From assembly GCA_947625635.1 (NCBI GenBank), contig CANQPA010000013.1:1-33182 (forward strand): a stretch of 33,182 nt of DNA. The letters are read 5' to 3'. The stretch comes from an uncultured Bacilli bacterium. GTDB lineage: Bacteria > Bacillota_I > Bacilli_A > RF39 > UBA660. The notes under the pieces were generated by a model. It was not told the origin of the DNA, did no database searches, and was given only the letters and a program-made list of their open reading frames with translations. Of the stretch, positions 23,402 through 33,106 are shown in pieces (the stretch's first letter is position 1; every line of letters begins with the position of its first letter). Made by a program: the position numbers and the translations under genes.

Positions 23402-26215
23402 ATGGAAAATAAGAAAAAATATATAATTGCAATTATCTTATTTATTTTTCTTGGACTTACAATATTTACTTTCGCAAATCCTAAAAAAGAGGAAATAAAA
23501 GAACAAGGTAGTGGAGAAAGTATAAAAGAAAATGTTGATAAAAGTAAAGATGGAGAAGATAGTTCCAAAAACAATACTAATATTAATACGAATGTAGAAA
23601 ATTCTGATAATTCTAATAATGTTAATTCACACGGAGTTAATGTTGAAGGATTAGTACATAATACATTTGTAAATGAAGAACAGAGTAATGGAGGTGTTGG
23701 AGGCGCTACTGTAGATGATTCATACGAACTTGCATTAAGAGCAGTTATAGAGGCTGAAGAAAAAATAGATGAAAATTCTGTTAAAAAAGCACAAGACTTA
23801 GTTGATAAAGTTGAAGATCAATCTAAAAAGAATGAACTTCAAAATAGGTTAGACGAAGTAAAAGATGAATTAGATGTTAAAGGCTTGGTAGAAAGTTTGA
23901 AAAATCAAACAAAAAGTGCTAAAAGTAAGGCAGAACTTGATAACGCAAGAGATTTTAGAAAAAATAAAGAAATTGTTAAAAAAGTTACTGATTTAACTAA
24001 TGAAAATTTAAAAGACGAATTAAATTCAACATTAGAAGAATTAGCTAGATTGCTTGATGATACAACTGCTCCAAAATTAAATGTTGAAAATGGCAAATTA
24101 TATAACAAATTTGTTAAAGTTGAAGCAAAGGATGAAGAAGGTAATGGAGCACAAGTTGTCATTAAAGATTCCGAAGGAAATGTTGTTGATAGTATCACAA
24201 AAGATGGAAGTTACACAATAACTGCAACAGATGATGCTTATAATACCGTTACTGTAACTATAACAGTTGATACAACTGCTCCAAAAGCGGAATTCTCAAG
24301 AATGTCAGTTTTAGGAGGAACTGGTAATGAAAAGAGTGTAAATGTAGGCAAAACAGTATGGGTTTATGTACGTTATAATGAAAAATTAGCTAGTGAGCCT
24401 AAAATTACAATTGCTGGAGTTGAGGCAAAAGTATTCTTAAATGATAAAAATGAAGATGAATCTAGGGATGTATATTATCTATATGTTGGTGAAGTAGTTT
24501 TACCTGACACTTTAACAGATGGTCAAAAAATTACATTTACAGTAACAGATGCATATGATGAAGCTGGAAATATGTCAGATGATGTTACAAGTGTAACGGA
24601 AGGTAATGTATTAGTTGTCGACAGAAAAGCTCCTTCATTAGTAGTAGATACGATAAATGAGAATGGATATTCTAATACACAAGATCCACAAGTACATGCA
24701 ACAGATGTAAATCCATTTAAAACAATAGTAAAATTGGATGGAAAAGTAGTAAGAGAAGATACAGCTTCTGAAAATGCAGATGGAACTTACTCAACTTGGT
24801 TTGGAATTGGATATTTAGATGATGGAGAATATGAAGTAACATCAGTTGATGAAGCTGGAAATATAACTGATGTAATTGATTTTATACTTGATAGAAATAA
24901 TCCAAGTTACAATTCCGTAGGAATAATGAATATAGATCAAAAAACTGAAGGTTATGCAAAAGTTGGAGATAGAGTTTGGGTGTATGTAGTAACAGATGAG
25001 CATTTATCTAAGGAACCAATAATCAAAATAAATGGAGTAGAAGCTAAGATAGTACAAACAGAAGACGGAAAAAAATTTGATGCAGATTGGTATAAGTATG
25101 TTGGTGAAGTAGTAATGACTGAAGATATGGAAGAAGGAGAAATTCAGTTCACAATCAGTGATTACTGTGATTTGGCTGGAAATAAAGGTCAAGAATTAAA
25201 TAACTCTAACATAAATAAAGGATTAGAAAAAATAATATTAGATAAAACAGCTCCAGTAATAACACTAGATACATATAATAATGGACTTACAAATGATAAG
25301 ACAGTAAATATAAAAGACGCAAATGAATTTAGCTATATAATACGTAAAAATGGAAAAGATGATGTAAGACCTTCAACAGCTAAAGAAGACGGAACGCAAT
25401 TTGCAAGGTTTGATGTATGGCAAGGTGATGGAGAATATACAATAATAGCAACAGATCTTGCTGGAAATACTTCAGAATTATCATTTACACTTGATACTAA
25501 ACCTATGACTGTTAATGGTATTGTGGCTAGGGTATTTGGAAACAACAATACAAGTAATAATACACTTGCAAAAATTGGGGATAGAATTCAAGTTGTAATA
25601 GATATAGCTGAAGAACTTGAGGTTATGCCATCACTTTCTATAAATGGCGAAACAATTAAATTTTCACCAACTGCTGGAACAAACGAAACTCATTTCGTAT
25701 ATGAAGCTAACTATATTGTAAAAGCAGGCGATAATGTTAAAAATGATGAAATTGTGTCATTTGAAGTTATAAATCTTAATGATAATGCTTTAAATGGGGT
25801 TAATTATAATAATAAAGAAAATACAACTAAATTGAATAATACAGATTTTAATGTAATTAAATACGATATTGTTGCTCCAAATGCGTCAGTTAATGGTAAA
25901 AAAATAAATGATGGAGAAACTATTACTTTTAAGTCAGGAACAAGTATAGATTCAAGAGATATTAATAAGTATGTTATTTTTGGTAGAAATATCAACGGTA
26001 GCAGAGATGGACAGATTGATCAATTCGGTTATAGGGATAGATTCAATATGGGATGGTTAGGCGAAGGAACATACAGTGTATCTGCGATGGATGAGGCTGG
26101 AAATGAGATAAAATTTAGTGTTATTCAAACAAACAATGATGTTGCTTCTTTAACCAGTTCTATACAAAATGAAGTTCAACAATCATATAATGATGAAGAA
26201 TTAAAGGCTTGTTAA
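23402..26215 (+). CDS. large secreted/membrane-anchored surface protein with repeated Ig-like domains
   Basis: N-terminal TM/signal, helical KKAQDLVDKVEDQ region, repeated DTTAPK..., EAGN.., Y.YVGEVV... Ig-like units; no LPXTG motif. Confidence 0.8.
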   Translation: MENKKKYIIAIILFIFLGLTIFTFANPKKEEIKEQGSGESIKENVDKSKDGEDSSKNNTNINTNVENSDNSNNVNSHGVNVEGLVHNTFVNEEQSNGGVGGATVDDSYELALRAVIEAEEKIDENSVKKAQDLVDKVEDQSKKNELQNRLDEVKDELDVKGLVESLKNQTKSAKSKAELDNARDFRKNKEIVKKVTDLTNENLKDELNSTLEELARLLDDTTAPKLNVENGKLYNKFVKVEAKDEEGNGAQVVIKDSEGNVVDSITKDGSYTITATDDAYNTVTVTITVDTTAPKAEFSRMSVLGGTGNEKSVNVGKTVWVYVRYNEKLASEPKITIAGVEAKVFLNDKNEDESRDVYYLYVGEVVLPDTLTDGQKITFTVTDAYDEAGNMSDDVTSVTEGNVLVVDRKAPSLVVDTINENGYSNTQDPQVHATDVNPFKTIVKLDGKVVREDTASENADGTYSTWFGIGYLDDGEYEVTSVDEAGNITDVIDFILDRNNPSYNSVGIMNIDQKTEGYAKVGDRVWVYVVTDEHLSKEPIIKINGVEAKIVQTEDGKKFDADWYKYVGEVVMTEDMEEGEIQFTISDYCDLAGNKGQELNNSNINKGLEKIILDKTAPVITLDTYNNGLTNDKTVNIKDANEFSYIIRKNGKDDVRPSTAKEDGTQFARFDVWQGDGEYTIIATDLAGNTSELSFTLDTKPMTVNGIVARVFGNNNTSNNTLAKIGDRIQVVIDIAEELEVMPSLSINGETIKFSPTAGTNETHFVYEANYIVKAGDNVKNDEIVSFEVINLNDNALNGVNYNNKENTTKLNNTDFNVIKYDIVAPNASVNGKKINDGETITFKSGTSIDSRDINKYVIFGRNINGSRDGQIDQFGYRDRFNMGWLGEGTYSVSAMDEAGNEIKFSVIQTNNDVASLTSSIQNEVQQSYNDEELKAC

Positions 26216-27730: not shown

Positions 27731-29263
27731 ATGTACGATGATAGAAAAGAAAAATTTTCGTTTAAGAGTTTCTTTTTGACTCTTTTATTAGTGTTACTGT
27801 TTATATTTTTAATGCTTTGGTTATTCCCAACTAAAAGTTATTTAGATAGCAAATTAGATGATAGTCAGACAATTTATAATTTGGATAGACTATCTGTTTT
27901 ATATGATGAAATATTTGCGAATAATGTAGAGAGAATGAAAGATGCTGCTATCGGGTATTTTACTAATGAAAGAATGCCACAAAAAGTGGGTGAAAGTAAG
28001 AAACTAACTTTAAAAGAAATGTATGACTTACATCTAGTTCTTAAAATGAAGGATAAAGATGGAAATCCTTGTGACACAGAAAAATCATATGTACAAATGA
28101 CTAAGTACACAGAAGAATACAGATTAAAAGTTAATTTAAGTTGTGGTGATCAAGAAGATTATATTATAGTTTATTTGGGATGTTATTCATATTGTTCGAA
28201 TGGTATATGTGAAAAACAAGTATCAACACCGTCAAGTCTTACCTTAAAAGAAGAAAAACAAAAAGAGCAAGAAGAGCAGGAAAAAGAACATAATACTCAG
28301 GATCCTGATAACAAATATTCTTGTAAAGTTGTCGATGGTAAGTATTATGATTCAAATGGCAATATTGTAAGTAAATCTGATTATAATAGATTATGTAACG
28401 TTCCGTCAGATAACAAACATTATTGTGAGGTTGTCGATGGTAAGTATTATGATTCAAATGGCAATATCGTAAGTAAATCTGAATATGTACAATCATGTAG
28501 CACTGTTAGTAAGAAGTATATGTATGAGTATAAAAAAGAAACTAATGGTGGTACTACTTGTACTGCGTGGTCTAATTGGCAAAAAGAACCAGTGAAGGCA
28601 ACAGACAAAATAAAAGTACAAACTAAAACTGAAAAAGAAATTATTGGATATACGACTTCTAAAGTTAAGACTGGGACTAAAGTTGAAACTATTACAAAAA
28701 AAGTAACTGAGAAGTATATAAAAGGTTATACTACTGAATTAGTAGTTGTCGGAACAAAAGATGTAATTGTAGGTAGTACAACAAAACAGGTTACAGAAAA
28801 GGTTGCTGTTGGAACAGTGGAAAAATACTATGGAATTGATTCAGGAACTGTAGTTCCAAAAAGTACTGATACTGTTAAGTATAAGAACGTGACAGTTAAT
28901 AGACCAGATTCTTGTTCAAATTGTGAAACTGAAACTAGGTATACTTGGGAAATTTGGAAAGTGGAAACAGTATATGATGTTGTAACAAAAAATGTTACAG
29001 TTCCAGTTTATAGAACTATAAATGTATATGAAAAAAAGGAAATTCCGGTATATGATTATAGAGTAGTTGAAAAACAGGAAAAAGTATATACTCCTGTATA
29101 TGAAGAAATTAAAACTCCACAATATGGCGATATAACATATTATAGATTTAAAACTTGTGAAACAAAAAAAGGAGAAGTATCTATTGTTTGGAGTTATAGT
29201 CAACATGATGCTGATTTGATTGGTCAAGGATACAAATTAACAGGTAATGTAAAACAAGTATAA
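27731..29263 (+). CDS. membrane-anchored repeat protein, Cys-containing, beta-rich C-terminus
   Basis: N-terminal TM (SFFLTLLLVLLFIFLMLWLF), duplicated VVDGKYYDSNGNIVSKS units, Thr/Val/Lys-rich C-terminal region. Confidence 0.75.
   Translation: MYDDRKEKFSFKSFFLTLLLVLLFIFLMLWLFPTKSYLDSKLDDSQTIYNLDRLSVLYDEIFANNVERMKDAAIGYFTNERMPQKVGESKKLTLKEMYDLHLVLKMKDKDGNPCDTEKSYVQMTKYTEEYRLKVNLSCGDQEDYIIVYLGCYSYCSNGICEKQVSTPSSLTLKEEKQKEQEEQEKEHNTQDPDNKYSCKVVDGKYYDSNGNIVSKSDYNRLCNVPSDNKHYCEVVDGKYYDSNGNIVSKSEYVQSCSTVSKKYMYEYKKETNGGTTCTAWSNWQKEPVKATDKIKVQTKTEKEIIGYTTSKVKTGTKVETITKKVTEKYIKGYTTELVVVGTKDVIVGSTTKQVTEKVAVGTVEKYYGIDSGTVVPKSTDTVKYKNVTVNRPDSCSNCETETRYTWEIWKVETVYDVVTKNVTVPVYRTINVYEKKEIPVYDYRVVEKQEKVYTPVYEEIKTPQYGDITYYRFKTCETKKGEVSIVWSYSQHDADLIGQGYKLTGNVKQV
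28328..28482 (+). repeat. 102-bp-period intragenic tandem duplication (2 copies)
   Basis: gttgtcgatggtaagtattatgattcaaatggcaatat(t/c)gtaagtaaatctga at 28328 and again at 28430. Confidence 0.9.
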
Positions 29264-29364: not shown

Positions 29365-29784
29365 ATGAAAGAAACATACATATTTGATTATACTAATGAA
29401 AATGAGTTTAGAAAGCTAGAACGTTCAATAAAAAAATATAATACGTTAGCATATAAAAAATTGTATTTTGAGTATTATCCGTCATTAAAGGAAGGAAAAT
29501 TTTTGGGTAAGTTAATATCTACAAATAAATCAAATGGTACGTCTGCTTATGAGCTGAAACTTCCAACTGATGCTATGTTTTCTAAGGTTCACGGAGATAT
29601 TAGGCTATATTATATTGTTTATCATAAAGAAAAAATTGTTATGTTAGATAAATTTGAACCTATTGATATATTAAGCGAAGGACATGCTTCTGAGCTTGTG
29701 ACTTATAAAGGCGTAATGGTTTCAAAACAGCATGCAGAAAAGGACATGTTTAAAATAAATTTGCTTAATATGATTCAAAAGTAA
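29365..29784 (+). CDS. hypothetical protein (139 aa)
   Basis: Good RBS GGAGGTGAACT, own promoter and terminator; no recognised family. Confidence 0.65.
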   Translation: MKETYIFDYTNENEFRKLERSIKKYNTLAYKKLYFEYYPSLKEGKFLGKLISTNKSNGTSAYELKLPTDAMFSKVHGDIRLYYIVYHKEKIVMLDKFEPIDILSEGHASELVTYKGVMVSKQHAEKDMFKINLLNMIQK

Positions 29785-29824
29785 ACGTTATTTGGCAATA
29801 ATATATAATAGTTTGATTTGTCAA

Positions 29825-29857: not shown

Positions 29858-29899
29858 ATTTATAATATGGTATAATAGTCCTAAATTGAGGTGATAATT

Positions 29900-31273
29900 A
29901 TGCCACACTTAGAATTAGGGTATTTATTTAAGAAAAAATATGTAACGTATAAAAAGAAAAAATATGAGATTTTTGAATTTATTGATTATGTTGCTGGTAT
30001 TAGTTTTATGAATAATCAATATGATAATATATGTAATATATTAAGTGGAAATAATGCTGGGATATACGCAGATGTTATCAACTCAAATGCCAATGAAGGG
30101 GAATATGTTTTTTTATCCGATGACATTGATCGTGCTATAGAATATAATGATAATTCTGTAGATTTTGATGCAATTCGAAAAAAAAGAATTAAATCAATTG
30201 CAAAATATTATTTAAGAAGTAATGGCATTAGATTATCAAAATTATCAGATGAAGATTTAATATCATTTATGGATAAGAATAATAAAATACAATCGGATTT
30301 TATCGAAGACATATTTGAGAATACTATTGATATATCATCTATGTATGCTCATATAAAAAAGACAATAATTTCACAGGATGAACAAATAATGCAAATACTT
30401 ACAGCGCTATTTAAAAATCAAAAAGTCGTTAATTCAGATTTGGACATGGACTTAATTGCTAAATTGAAAGAAAATATTTTAATTTGTGGCTCTACTGGTA
30501 CAGGGAAAACAGAAATATTAAAAAGAATTTCCAAATTATATAAAATTCCTGTTGTTATTGAAGATGCAACATCTCTTTCTGAAACTGGATATCAGGGAAG
30601 AAAAATTACTGATATGCTTGAAGATTTGTGTTTAGCATCAAATGGAGACCTTGATTTAGCTGAAAAAGGCATTTTAGTTATTGATGAATTTGATAAGCTT
30701 GCGGAAAGATCAAGCGATAGTGAGTCCCATGTTTCTAGATTAGGTGTGCAAAGATCTTTGTTAAAATTATTGGATGGTTCTTTATTTTATTTTGATAATA
30801 AAAAATTTGATACGTCTAAATTAACAGTAGTAGGACTTGGCGCCTTTACTGGAATAACTAATGATGATGGGTATAAACATCTTACAACTGATGATTTTAT
30901 GAAGTATGGAATTATGAGAGAATTGATTGGAAGGTTTTCAAAAACAATTTCTATGAATCCGTTAAAAAAAGAAGATATAATCAAGATATTAAATGAGTCT
31001 AATTTTAGTCCATTAAATACATATAAAAAATTATTTGAAATGTTAGGAGTTAGTTTTGAATTCAATGATGATTTTGTAGAATATATAGCGGAATTAGCTA
31101 TAGCTAAAAAGAGTGGTGCTAGAAGTTTAAAAACAGTTTTTGATGATTGCATTAGCAGTGCTCTATTTAGCATTTTTGCAGGAGAATATTCTAGAATTTC
31201 TTTAGTAAAACCAAACGATGAAAATAATAAACCTTATATTTTAACGAAATTAAAAACAAAAAAGAAAAAATAG
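29900..31273 (+). CDS. ClpX-like AAA+ ATPase with non-ClpX N-terminal domain (paralog 1)
   Basis: Walker A GSTGTGKTE, pore-loop GYQG, Walker B ILVIDEFDKLA, RELIGRF, sensor-2 SGARSLK. SD GAGGTGAT supports ATG 29900, not the track start at GTG 29891. Confidence 0.88.
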   Translation: MPHLELGYLFKKKYVTYKKKKYEIFEFIDYVAGISFMNNQYDNICNILSGNNAGIYADVINSNANEGEYVFLSDDIDRAIEYNDNSVDFDAIRKKRIKSIAKYYLRSNGIRLSKLSDEDLISFMDKNNKIQSDFIEDIFENTIDISSMYAHIKKTIISQDEQIMQILTALFKNQKVVNSDLDMDLIAKLKENILICGSTGTGKTEILKRISKLYKIPVVIEDATSLSETGYQGRKITDMLEDLCLASNGDLDLAEKGILVIDEFDKLAERSSDSESHVSRLGVQRSLLKLLDGSLFYFDNKKFDTSKLTVVGLGAFTGITNDDGYKHLTTDDFMKYGIMRELIGRFSKTISMNPLKKEDIIKILNESNFSPLNTYKKLFEMLGVSFEFNDDFVEYIAELAIAKKSGARSLKTVFDDCISSALFSIFAGEYSRISLVKPNDENNKPYILTKLKTKKKK

Positions 31274-31435
31274 TTTATAAAAAATAAATGTGATTATATA
31301 TTAATATTCTAATTATGTATTTTTTATTCTAAAAATTCCAATTTTCTATTCTATTATAATGATACGAGTGAGGTAAAGTTGATATTTTTAGATTTCGCGT
31401 TATAGTAAATCACCAATAAGGGGGGAGGGAAATAC

Positions 31436-32782
31436 ATGAATATTGTTATGAATTATGTTGGTTTAGCTGATTTATTAGAAAGAAAAGAGTGCATTGTTGA
31501 CGGGAAAAAACGAATATATTATGAAAAATTGGGACCTTGTATTGGTTTTGGCTACAATTTTAGTAATAATGGAAAATCATTTGCTGTTTTAACAGGAAAA
31601 TTGGCAGGGGAAGTAATAGATTCTAATTCTGTTTATTATTATGCTAATTTTAAAACGTTTAGAGACCTCTGTAAAGAAAATAATGATGTCTATGACTATA
31701 ATAAATTTATGTGTTACTATCAAAATGATATTGGCGCCTATTTCATTTATGATCACGATAAACTATGCTATTCAAAAATAACTGATCCAGAATTATTACG
31801 AAAAATGCAAGTTGCAGCTAAAGATCATGATGATGCAAATTTAAATAACAATATAAATATTTCTCAAATATATTCTGAAATTAAGAAAACAATTATTTCT
31901 CAAGATAAACAAATTATGCAAATATTAACCTCTCTTTTTAAAAATCAAAAAGTTATAAATTTACCGCTTAGTATTGATATGATAACAAGATTAAAGGAAA
32001 ATATTATTGTTTATGGTCCTACGGGAACAGGAAAAACTGAAATTTTAAAAAGAATTGCTAATATGTATAAAATTCCTATCGTTATTGAGGATGCAACGTC
32101 TTTTTCTGAAACTGGATATATTGGTAGAAATATTACAGATATGTTAGAAAATTTGTATTTAGCTGCTGGTAATAATATCGAAAAAGCCCAAAAAGGAATT
32201 TTAGTTATAGATGAATTTGATAAATTGGCAGAAAAAAATAATTCTTCCCACGACCATGTTTCAAGAATTGGGGTTCAAAGATCATTACTAAAATTATTAG
32301 ATGGTTCAACATTTTATTTTGGAGACAAAAAATTCAATACATCAAGACTTTCCGTTGTTGCTTTAGGTGCATTTACAGGAATAGTAGACAACGATGATTA
32401 TTCAAATGTATCATTAAATGACTTTGTAAATTATGGGATAATGCGAGAGTTAATAGGGAGATTCTCAAAATTAGTTGCTATGAATTCTTTATCAAAAGAG
32501 GATATTAAGAAAATTTTAAAAGAATCTAATTTTAGCCCATTAAATACATATAAATTATTATTTGAATCTATGAATATAAAATTTTCATATGATGAAGATT
32601 TTGTTGATTACATCGCAGAAAAGGCATTTGTATTAAATAGTGGCGCTAGGAGTTTGAAAACAATTTTTGATGATACTATTAATAGTGCTATGTTTAAAAT
32701 TTTCACAGGAGAGTATTCTGAGATAAGTTTAACAGGACCTACTAATGAACAAAGATCTTATTTATTAACAAAAAAAAGATGA
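31436..32782 (+). CDS. ClpX-like AAA+ ATPase with non-ClpX N-terminal domain (paralog 2)
   Basis: Walker A GPTGTGKTE, pore-loop GYIG, Walker B ILVIDEFDKLA, RELIGRF, SGARSLK; strong SD GGGGGGAGGG. Confidence 0.88.
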   Translation: MNIVMNYVGLADLLERKECIVDGKKRIYYEKLGPCIGFGYNFSNNGKSFAVLTGKLAGEVIDSNSVYYYANFKTFRDLCKENNDVYDYNKFMCYYQNDIGAYFIYDHDKLCYSKITDPELLRKMQVAAKDHDDANLNNNINISQIYSEIKKTIISQDKQIMQILTSLFKNQKVINLPLSIDMITRLKENIIVYGPTGTGKTEILKRIANMYKIPIVIEDATSFSETGYIGRNITDMLENLYLAAGNNIEKAQKGILVIDEFDKLAEKNNSSHDHVSRIGVQRSLLKLLDGSTFYFGDKKFNTSRLSVVALGAFTGIVDNDDYSNVSLNDFVNYGIMRELIGRFSKLVAMNSLSKEDIKKILKESNFSPLNTYKLLFESMNIKFSYDEDFVDYIAEKAFVLNSGARSLKTIFDDTINSAMFKIFTGEYSEISLTGPTNEQRSYLLTKKR

Positions 32783-33083: not shown

Positions 33084-33106
33084 ACTCGAACTATAATAGT
33101 CCGAGT
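33084..33106. repeat. 23-bp near-perfect palindrome
   Basis: ACTCG-A-ACTAT-A-ATAGT-C-CGAGT, one mismatch pair. Confidence 0.7.

Follow-up and report, generated by a model that had tools for sequence, protein, structure and literature searches.

Two adjacent genes of an uncultured bacterium, ORF A and ORF B, probably encode free-standing, ClpP-independent unfoldases or remodellers; judged from their sequences, each would join a ClpX-type motor to a fast-changing recognition domain, possibly in the service of genetic conflict. The window (the whole 33,182-nucleotide stretch that was analysed) is one entire contig (G000:C13); the genome bin to which it belongs measures 1.30 Mb, with 89.7% completeness and 7.8% contamination. 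The host is termed a gut bacterium, and its named relatives, uncultured Bacilli, mostly carry the sample label Lapin (rabbit). No description of the family turned up in the literature on this lineage or on ClpX paralogs that lack the zinc domain or the loop; this absence is weak evidence, because coverage was of open-access papers only.

ORF A (29900..31273, + strand) encodes a type A ClpX-like AAA+ ATPase of 457 aa that starts at ATG 29900, behind the ribosome-binding site GAGGTGA (29888-29894, +); the GTG at 29891, also listed as a start, is the less probable choice. ORF B (31436..32782, +) encodes a type B ATPase of 448 aa that starts at ATG 31436, behind the ribosome-binding site GGGGGGAGGG (31420-31429, +). 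Both proteins exceeded the curated cut-offs of Pfam AAA_2 and ClpB_D2-small. Alignment with ClpX and with members of the subfamily showed that Walker A (GSTGTGKT at 30488..30511 in ORF A and GPTGTGKT at 32015..32038 in ORF B, both +) and Walker B (DEFDK) were intact. So were the arginines of box VII (ELIGRF) and sensor 2 (SGAR) and the aromatic residue of the pore, and the pore-1 motif read GYQG in ORF A and GYIG in ORF B. An AlphaFold model of ORF B (pLDDT 86, pTM 0.65) had ClpX structures as its best structural matches. The Pfam matches and conserved motor motifs bear out the earlier note, which had claimed a ClpX-type AAA+ core for both ORFs.

Neither protein is a canonical ClpX. Scores against the NCBIfam ClpX models (TIGR00382 and NF003745 served as references) ranged from 155 to 183 bits for ORF A and ORF B versus cut-offs of 359–371; for TIGR00382 the values were 160 and 155 bits, respectively, far below the equivalog cut-off of 371. 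The HslU model likewise scored 124 and 130 bits for the pair versus a cut-off of 362. The C4 zinc domain, already noted as missing from the sequence alone, was indeed absent: zf-C4_ClpX was not among the Pfam matches listed for either protein, and the N-domain translations contained no CxxC pairs. Comparison with ClpX showed that the RKH loop was also missing from both window proteins.

In place of the zinc domain, both proteins carry a dedicated N-terminal domain, as the earlier note had proposed, and it belongs to no known family. It spans about residues 1–140 of ORF A (29900..30319, +) and about residues 1–137 of ORF B (31436..31846, +). There was no Pfam match to this domain and no relative in the PDB sequence set. 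The AlphaFold model of ORF B predicted, with good confidence, a beta-rich N-domain of five strands, two helices and two strands. The N-domain is common to types A and B, and an IGF-bearing relative showed the identical predicted order of strands and helices; the relative's model had low overall confidence (pLDDT 68), and only its N-domain element order was considered. ORF A and ORF B share 54% identity overall; their motors are closer (66%) than their N-domains (about 23%). Three genomes (G222, G316, G931) had genes that encode the N-domain with no motor attached (139–151 aa), at L212 335-766, L213 3657-4076 and L211 3389-3844. In two species of one genus the stand-alone gene occupied a matching position, next to one that encodes a 126-aa protein; the third genome supplied the remaining copy. 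These genes could be remnants, adaptors or decoys.

The second departure from ClpX concerns protease docking, for which the IGF loops are the ClpP docking elements (PMC9035409). We measured the stretch from GAF to ELIGRF, that is, from sensor 1 to box VII. It was 33 residues long in both ORF A (30839..30937, +) and ORF B (32366..32464, +) and held no IGF tripeptide. In canonical ClpX (n = 14) it was 44–57 residues long (57 in seven of the 14) and carried IGF or VGF, so the short, tripeptide-free stretch described in the earlier note was real. In distant ClpX-like proteins from the window's GTDB family the stretch measured 44–54 residues and held I/V/LGF or, once, IGL. Within the window's subfamily the IGF-type tripeptide was lacking in 28 of 30 loops, and with it about 22 surrounding residues; because these are 28 distinct loops, the IGF-less stretch of A and B is not a matter of chance.

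The loss is not absolute, since two of the 30 members had a 55-residue IGF loop: L131 (genome G432), an intact gene, and L082 (G223), a broken one. Universal loss in the subfamily was thereby ruled out. Across the motor region used, with the loop excepted, L131 was 96% identical to an IGF-less member, and by this comparison the IGF loop is modular and can differ even between closely related members. The best tree placed L131 amid IGF-less proteins, and none of 200 bootstrap trees had a branch that separated the IGF-less proteins from all others; a constrained tree with all IGF-less members as a single clade was not rejected (p-AU = 0.18). Multiple origins of the loss, as read from these trees, are not proven.

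These proteins live in bacteria that possess the protease. ClpP was kept in 34 of the 35 genomes of the window's GTDB family (G000-G034), and canonical ClpX above the curated cut-off was found in none of the 35, while the identical search detected ClpX in 10 genomes from other families of the class. Genomes of the window's GTDB family also had ClpB-like proteins, and most genus mates had ClpC-like proteins; all three ClpC-like proteins read had a VGF or LGF tripeptide at the expected loop. In the window's own genome we detected ClpP and ClpB, and neither ClpC nor an IGF-bearing ClpX-like protein was found in the bin; at 90% completeness this absence is suggestive only. The same genome encodes a second, divergent ClpP-family protein (G000:C29:9267-9776; 81 bits), perhaps a phage-type protease.

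Such wide retention of ClpP, together with IGF-bearing versions inside the subfamily (including the near-identical L131), could mean that the proteins still serve ClpP as specialised ClpXP caps, either through another docking surface or in mixed rings with an IGF-bearing relative. We consider this unlikely, because the tripeptide and its flanks are missing from nearly all members and the window's incomplete genome yielded no IGF-bearing ClpX-like protein with which a mixed ring could form. Independence from ClpP, which the earlier note had also suggested, is the simplest reading of the window proteins.

Phylogenetic analysis separated ClpX from the subfamily and the zinc-less, IGF-bearing relatives, which stood together (SH-aLRT = 100). 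The window's subfamily formed one clade (support 100) containing two N-terminal types, A and B, and the window carries one gene of each. Of 295 genomes sampled from the window's GTDB family, about 15 had a member. Outside that family, 348 genomes sampled from the class and 398 from the phylum yielded no subfamily-strength member, and viral contigs yielded no relative. The phage and plasmid matches that we read were ClpX or ClpX-like proteins rather than subfamily members, with an IGF-type loop or a close variant and, in nearly all cases, a zinc domain. Other zinc-less ClpX-like proteins of the same bacteria were mostly 450–800 residues long, and those read had an IGF-type loop. Three IGF-bearing ClpX-like genes of the window's genus (L176, L177, L178) occupy a fixed locus with a sortase and a UvrD-like helicase (L177 and L178 tested) and SpaA-type pilin genes (L177 tested).

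The earlier note had described the two genes as a tandem pair whose products possibly form a hetero-oligomer, and the results did not support a functional pair or hetero-oligomer. The genes lie on the same strand, 162 bp apart, an arrangement that might suggest joint action as a hetero-oligomer or two-gene operon. However, this gap is wide, and ORF A and ORF B are each preceded by a separate ribosome-binding site. The proposed check for conservation across related genomes also failed to recover the tandem, which was seen nowhere else. At other loci the gene was solitary and its neighbours varied, except in genomes of one genus with common surroundings, and one genome (G270) had one type A and one type B gene on different contigs. 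A recent tandem duplication was ruled out as well, because A and B fell in separate clades with other genera; by this placement they are ancient paralogs. We therefore regard joint action as very unlikely.

Locus comparison located the pair in a variable site. The 5' border of this site is F1, a family-conserved gene for a 139-aa protein (29365..29784, +). In each of the 13 loci compared, F0, which encodes a 510-aa secreted-type protein (27731..29263, + in the window), adjoined F1 or was separated from it by a single gene; the window pair directly follows F0-F1. The DNA behind F1 (window position 29785 onwards; L164-L175) changed in content between genomes. A type A copy stood between F1 and cysS in G301, and a broken type A copy near cysS in G223. 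Some of the variable regions beside F1 contained serine recombinase and Mob_Pre relaxase genes. Neither the gene surroundings nor PADLOC revealed a substrate, a partner gene or a defence neighbour. Farther upstream, the window encodes a secreted-looking 937-aa protein (23402-26215) with weak matches to bacterial Ig-like domains.

A dispersed intergenic repeat of ~125 bp was found 59–84 nt upstream of the likely start in eleven copies of both types (L006, L007, L043, L071, L075, L077, L082, L130, L131, L214, L216). These do not represent eleven independent events, because many of the copies are related by descent. The repeat also occurred at sites without an AAA gene (e.g., L164 5145-5236 and L155 1277-1393), and in two genomes it lay behind F1. 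The window pair lacked a full repeat, with a partial copy at 33084-33106. No convincing RNA structure and no Rfam match was found for the repeat, which may mark an insertion or recombination site.

We compared the divergence of the motor region with that of two control genes, GlyS and Tgt. Fifteen gene pairs had a motor dS below 0.6 (0.14–0.57) where GlyS and Tgt gave dS values of 0.9 to >2 or were saturated. The clearest pair, from G330 and G331, had a motor dS of 0.14 versus 1.19 and 1.34 for the GlyS/Tgt controls. Of the 56 testable pairs, 14 had a motor dS below half the GlyS value and below half the Tgt value. These dS values show that subfamily genes were horizontally transferred between genera. 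The closest copies had conserved DNA reaching 143–201 nt upstream of the ATG and 4–58 nt past the stop codon, and nothing comparable beyond. These limits of similarity show the transferred unit to be the upstream region, the ORF and a short 3' region.

Selection differed between the two halves of the protein. Among the 15 close pairs, motor dN/dS was 0.08–0.25 (median 0.13), indicating that the motor is under purifying selection. The N-domain gave dN/dS values of 0.30–0.82 (median 0.56), and its dN was 4.4 times that of the motor. This rate would fit changing targets; because the median is below 1, relaxed constraint could be an alternative cause.

Mobility raises the question of whether these are selfish or accessory genes of no steady benefit, carried on mobilizable elements and maintained by transfer alone. 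Their occurrence is patchy, they have been transferred, they lie in variable sites, some copies are broken, and the recombinases and relaxases lie in some of the regions. Nevertheless, the low dN/dS of the motor implies that its function is selected, and we judge transfer alone to be an improbable explanation.

In the account that we favour, the product of each gene acts alone as an AAA+ ring motor derived from ClpX. Each protein would form a homohexamer, bind its target via the N-domain, pull the target through the pore and release it without transfer to ClpP; because there would be no handover to ClpP, the target would end up unfolded or disassembled rather than degraded. IGF-bearing close relatives could deliver identical targets to ClpP. 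The fast N-domain and the mobility of the gene suggest that targets vary, as the proteins of a competing mobile element or a phage would. Against this account stand the stop codons in at least two subfamily copies, which indicate that the gene is dispensable. It is conceivable, and we offer this only tentatively, that the genes are a mobile one-gene conflict system in which the ClpP-free ClpX motor unfolds proteins of phages or rival elements and the IGF version feeds ClpP.

These findings depict a radiation of ClpX-type motors among ClpP-bearing bacteria in which classic ClpX was undetected, with the protease hook kept in some motors and lost in others. The natural pair whose members differ in the presence of the hook, yet are 96% identical elsewhere, would allow a direct test of the value of protease docking. 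Moreover, the fast N-domain combined with transfer across genera provides a testable case of a mobile unfoldase in genetic conflict.

Among known systems, ORF A and ORF B resemble ClpX in the AAA+ core, the GYxG pore loop, the DExDK Walker B and the box VII and sensor-2 arginines, and they are about 30% identical to ClpX from other Bacilli families. They differ from ClpX in lacking the C4 zinc domain, RKH loop and IGF loop, and in the new N-domain. The zinc-less, IGF-bearing relatives (L025-L034, L055-L067) occur in the same bacteria, are likewise without the zinc domain and RKH loop, and match in N-domain element order where modelled; they differ in retaining an IGF-type tripeptide (one IGL) in the 44–54-residue stretch, and identity is 23–33%. 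The anti-phage ATPase IteA/IetA shares the AAA core alone. Scores of A and B for IetAS/IteA were at most 28 bits versus the NCBIfam cut-off of 510, and at most 34–35 bits in PADLOC; no paired partner gene was found. Mitochondrial ClpX is a housekeeping protein of mitochondria and is not known to be mobile. It can remodel ALAS independently of ClpP (PMC7077987, PMC12994072). Although human ClpX retains the zinc domain (PMC12994072) that A and B lack, the proposed activity of the window proteins would resemble that of mitochondrial ClpX in using a ClpX-type motor on a target that is remodelled, not degraded (PMC7077987).
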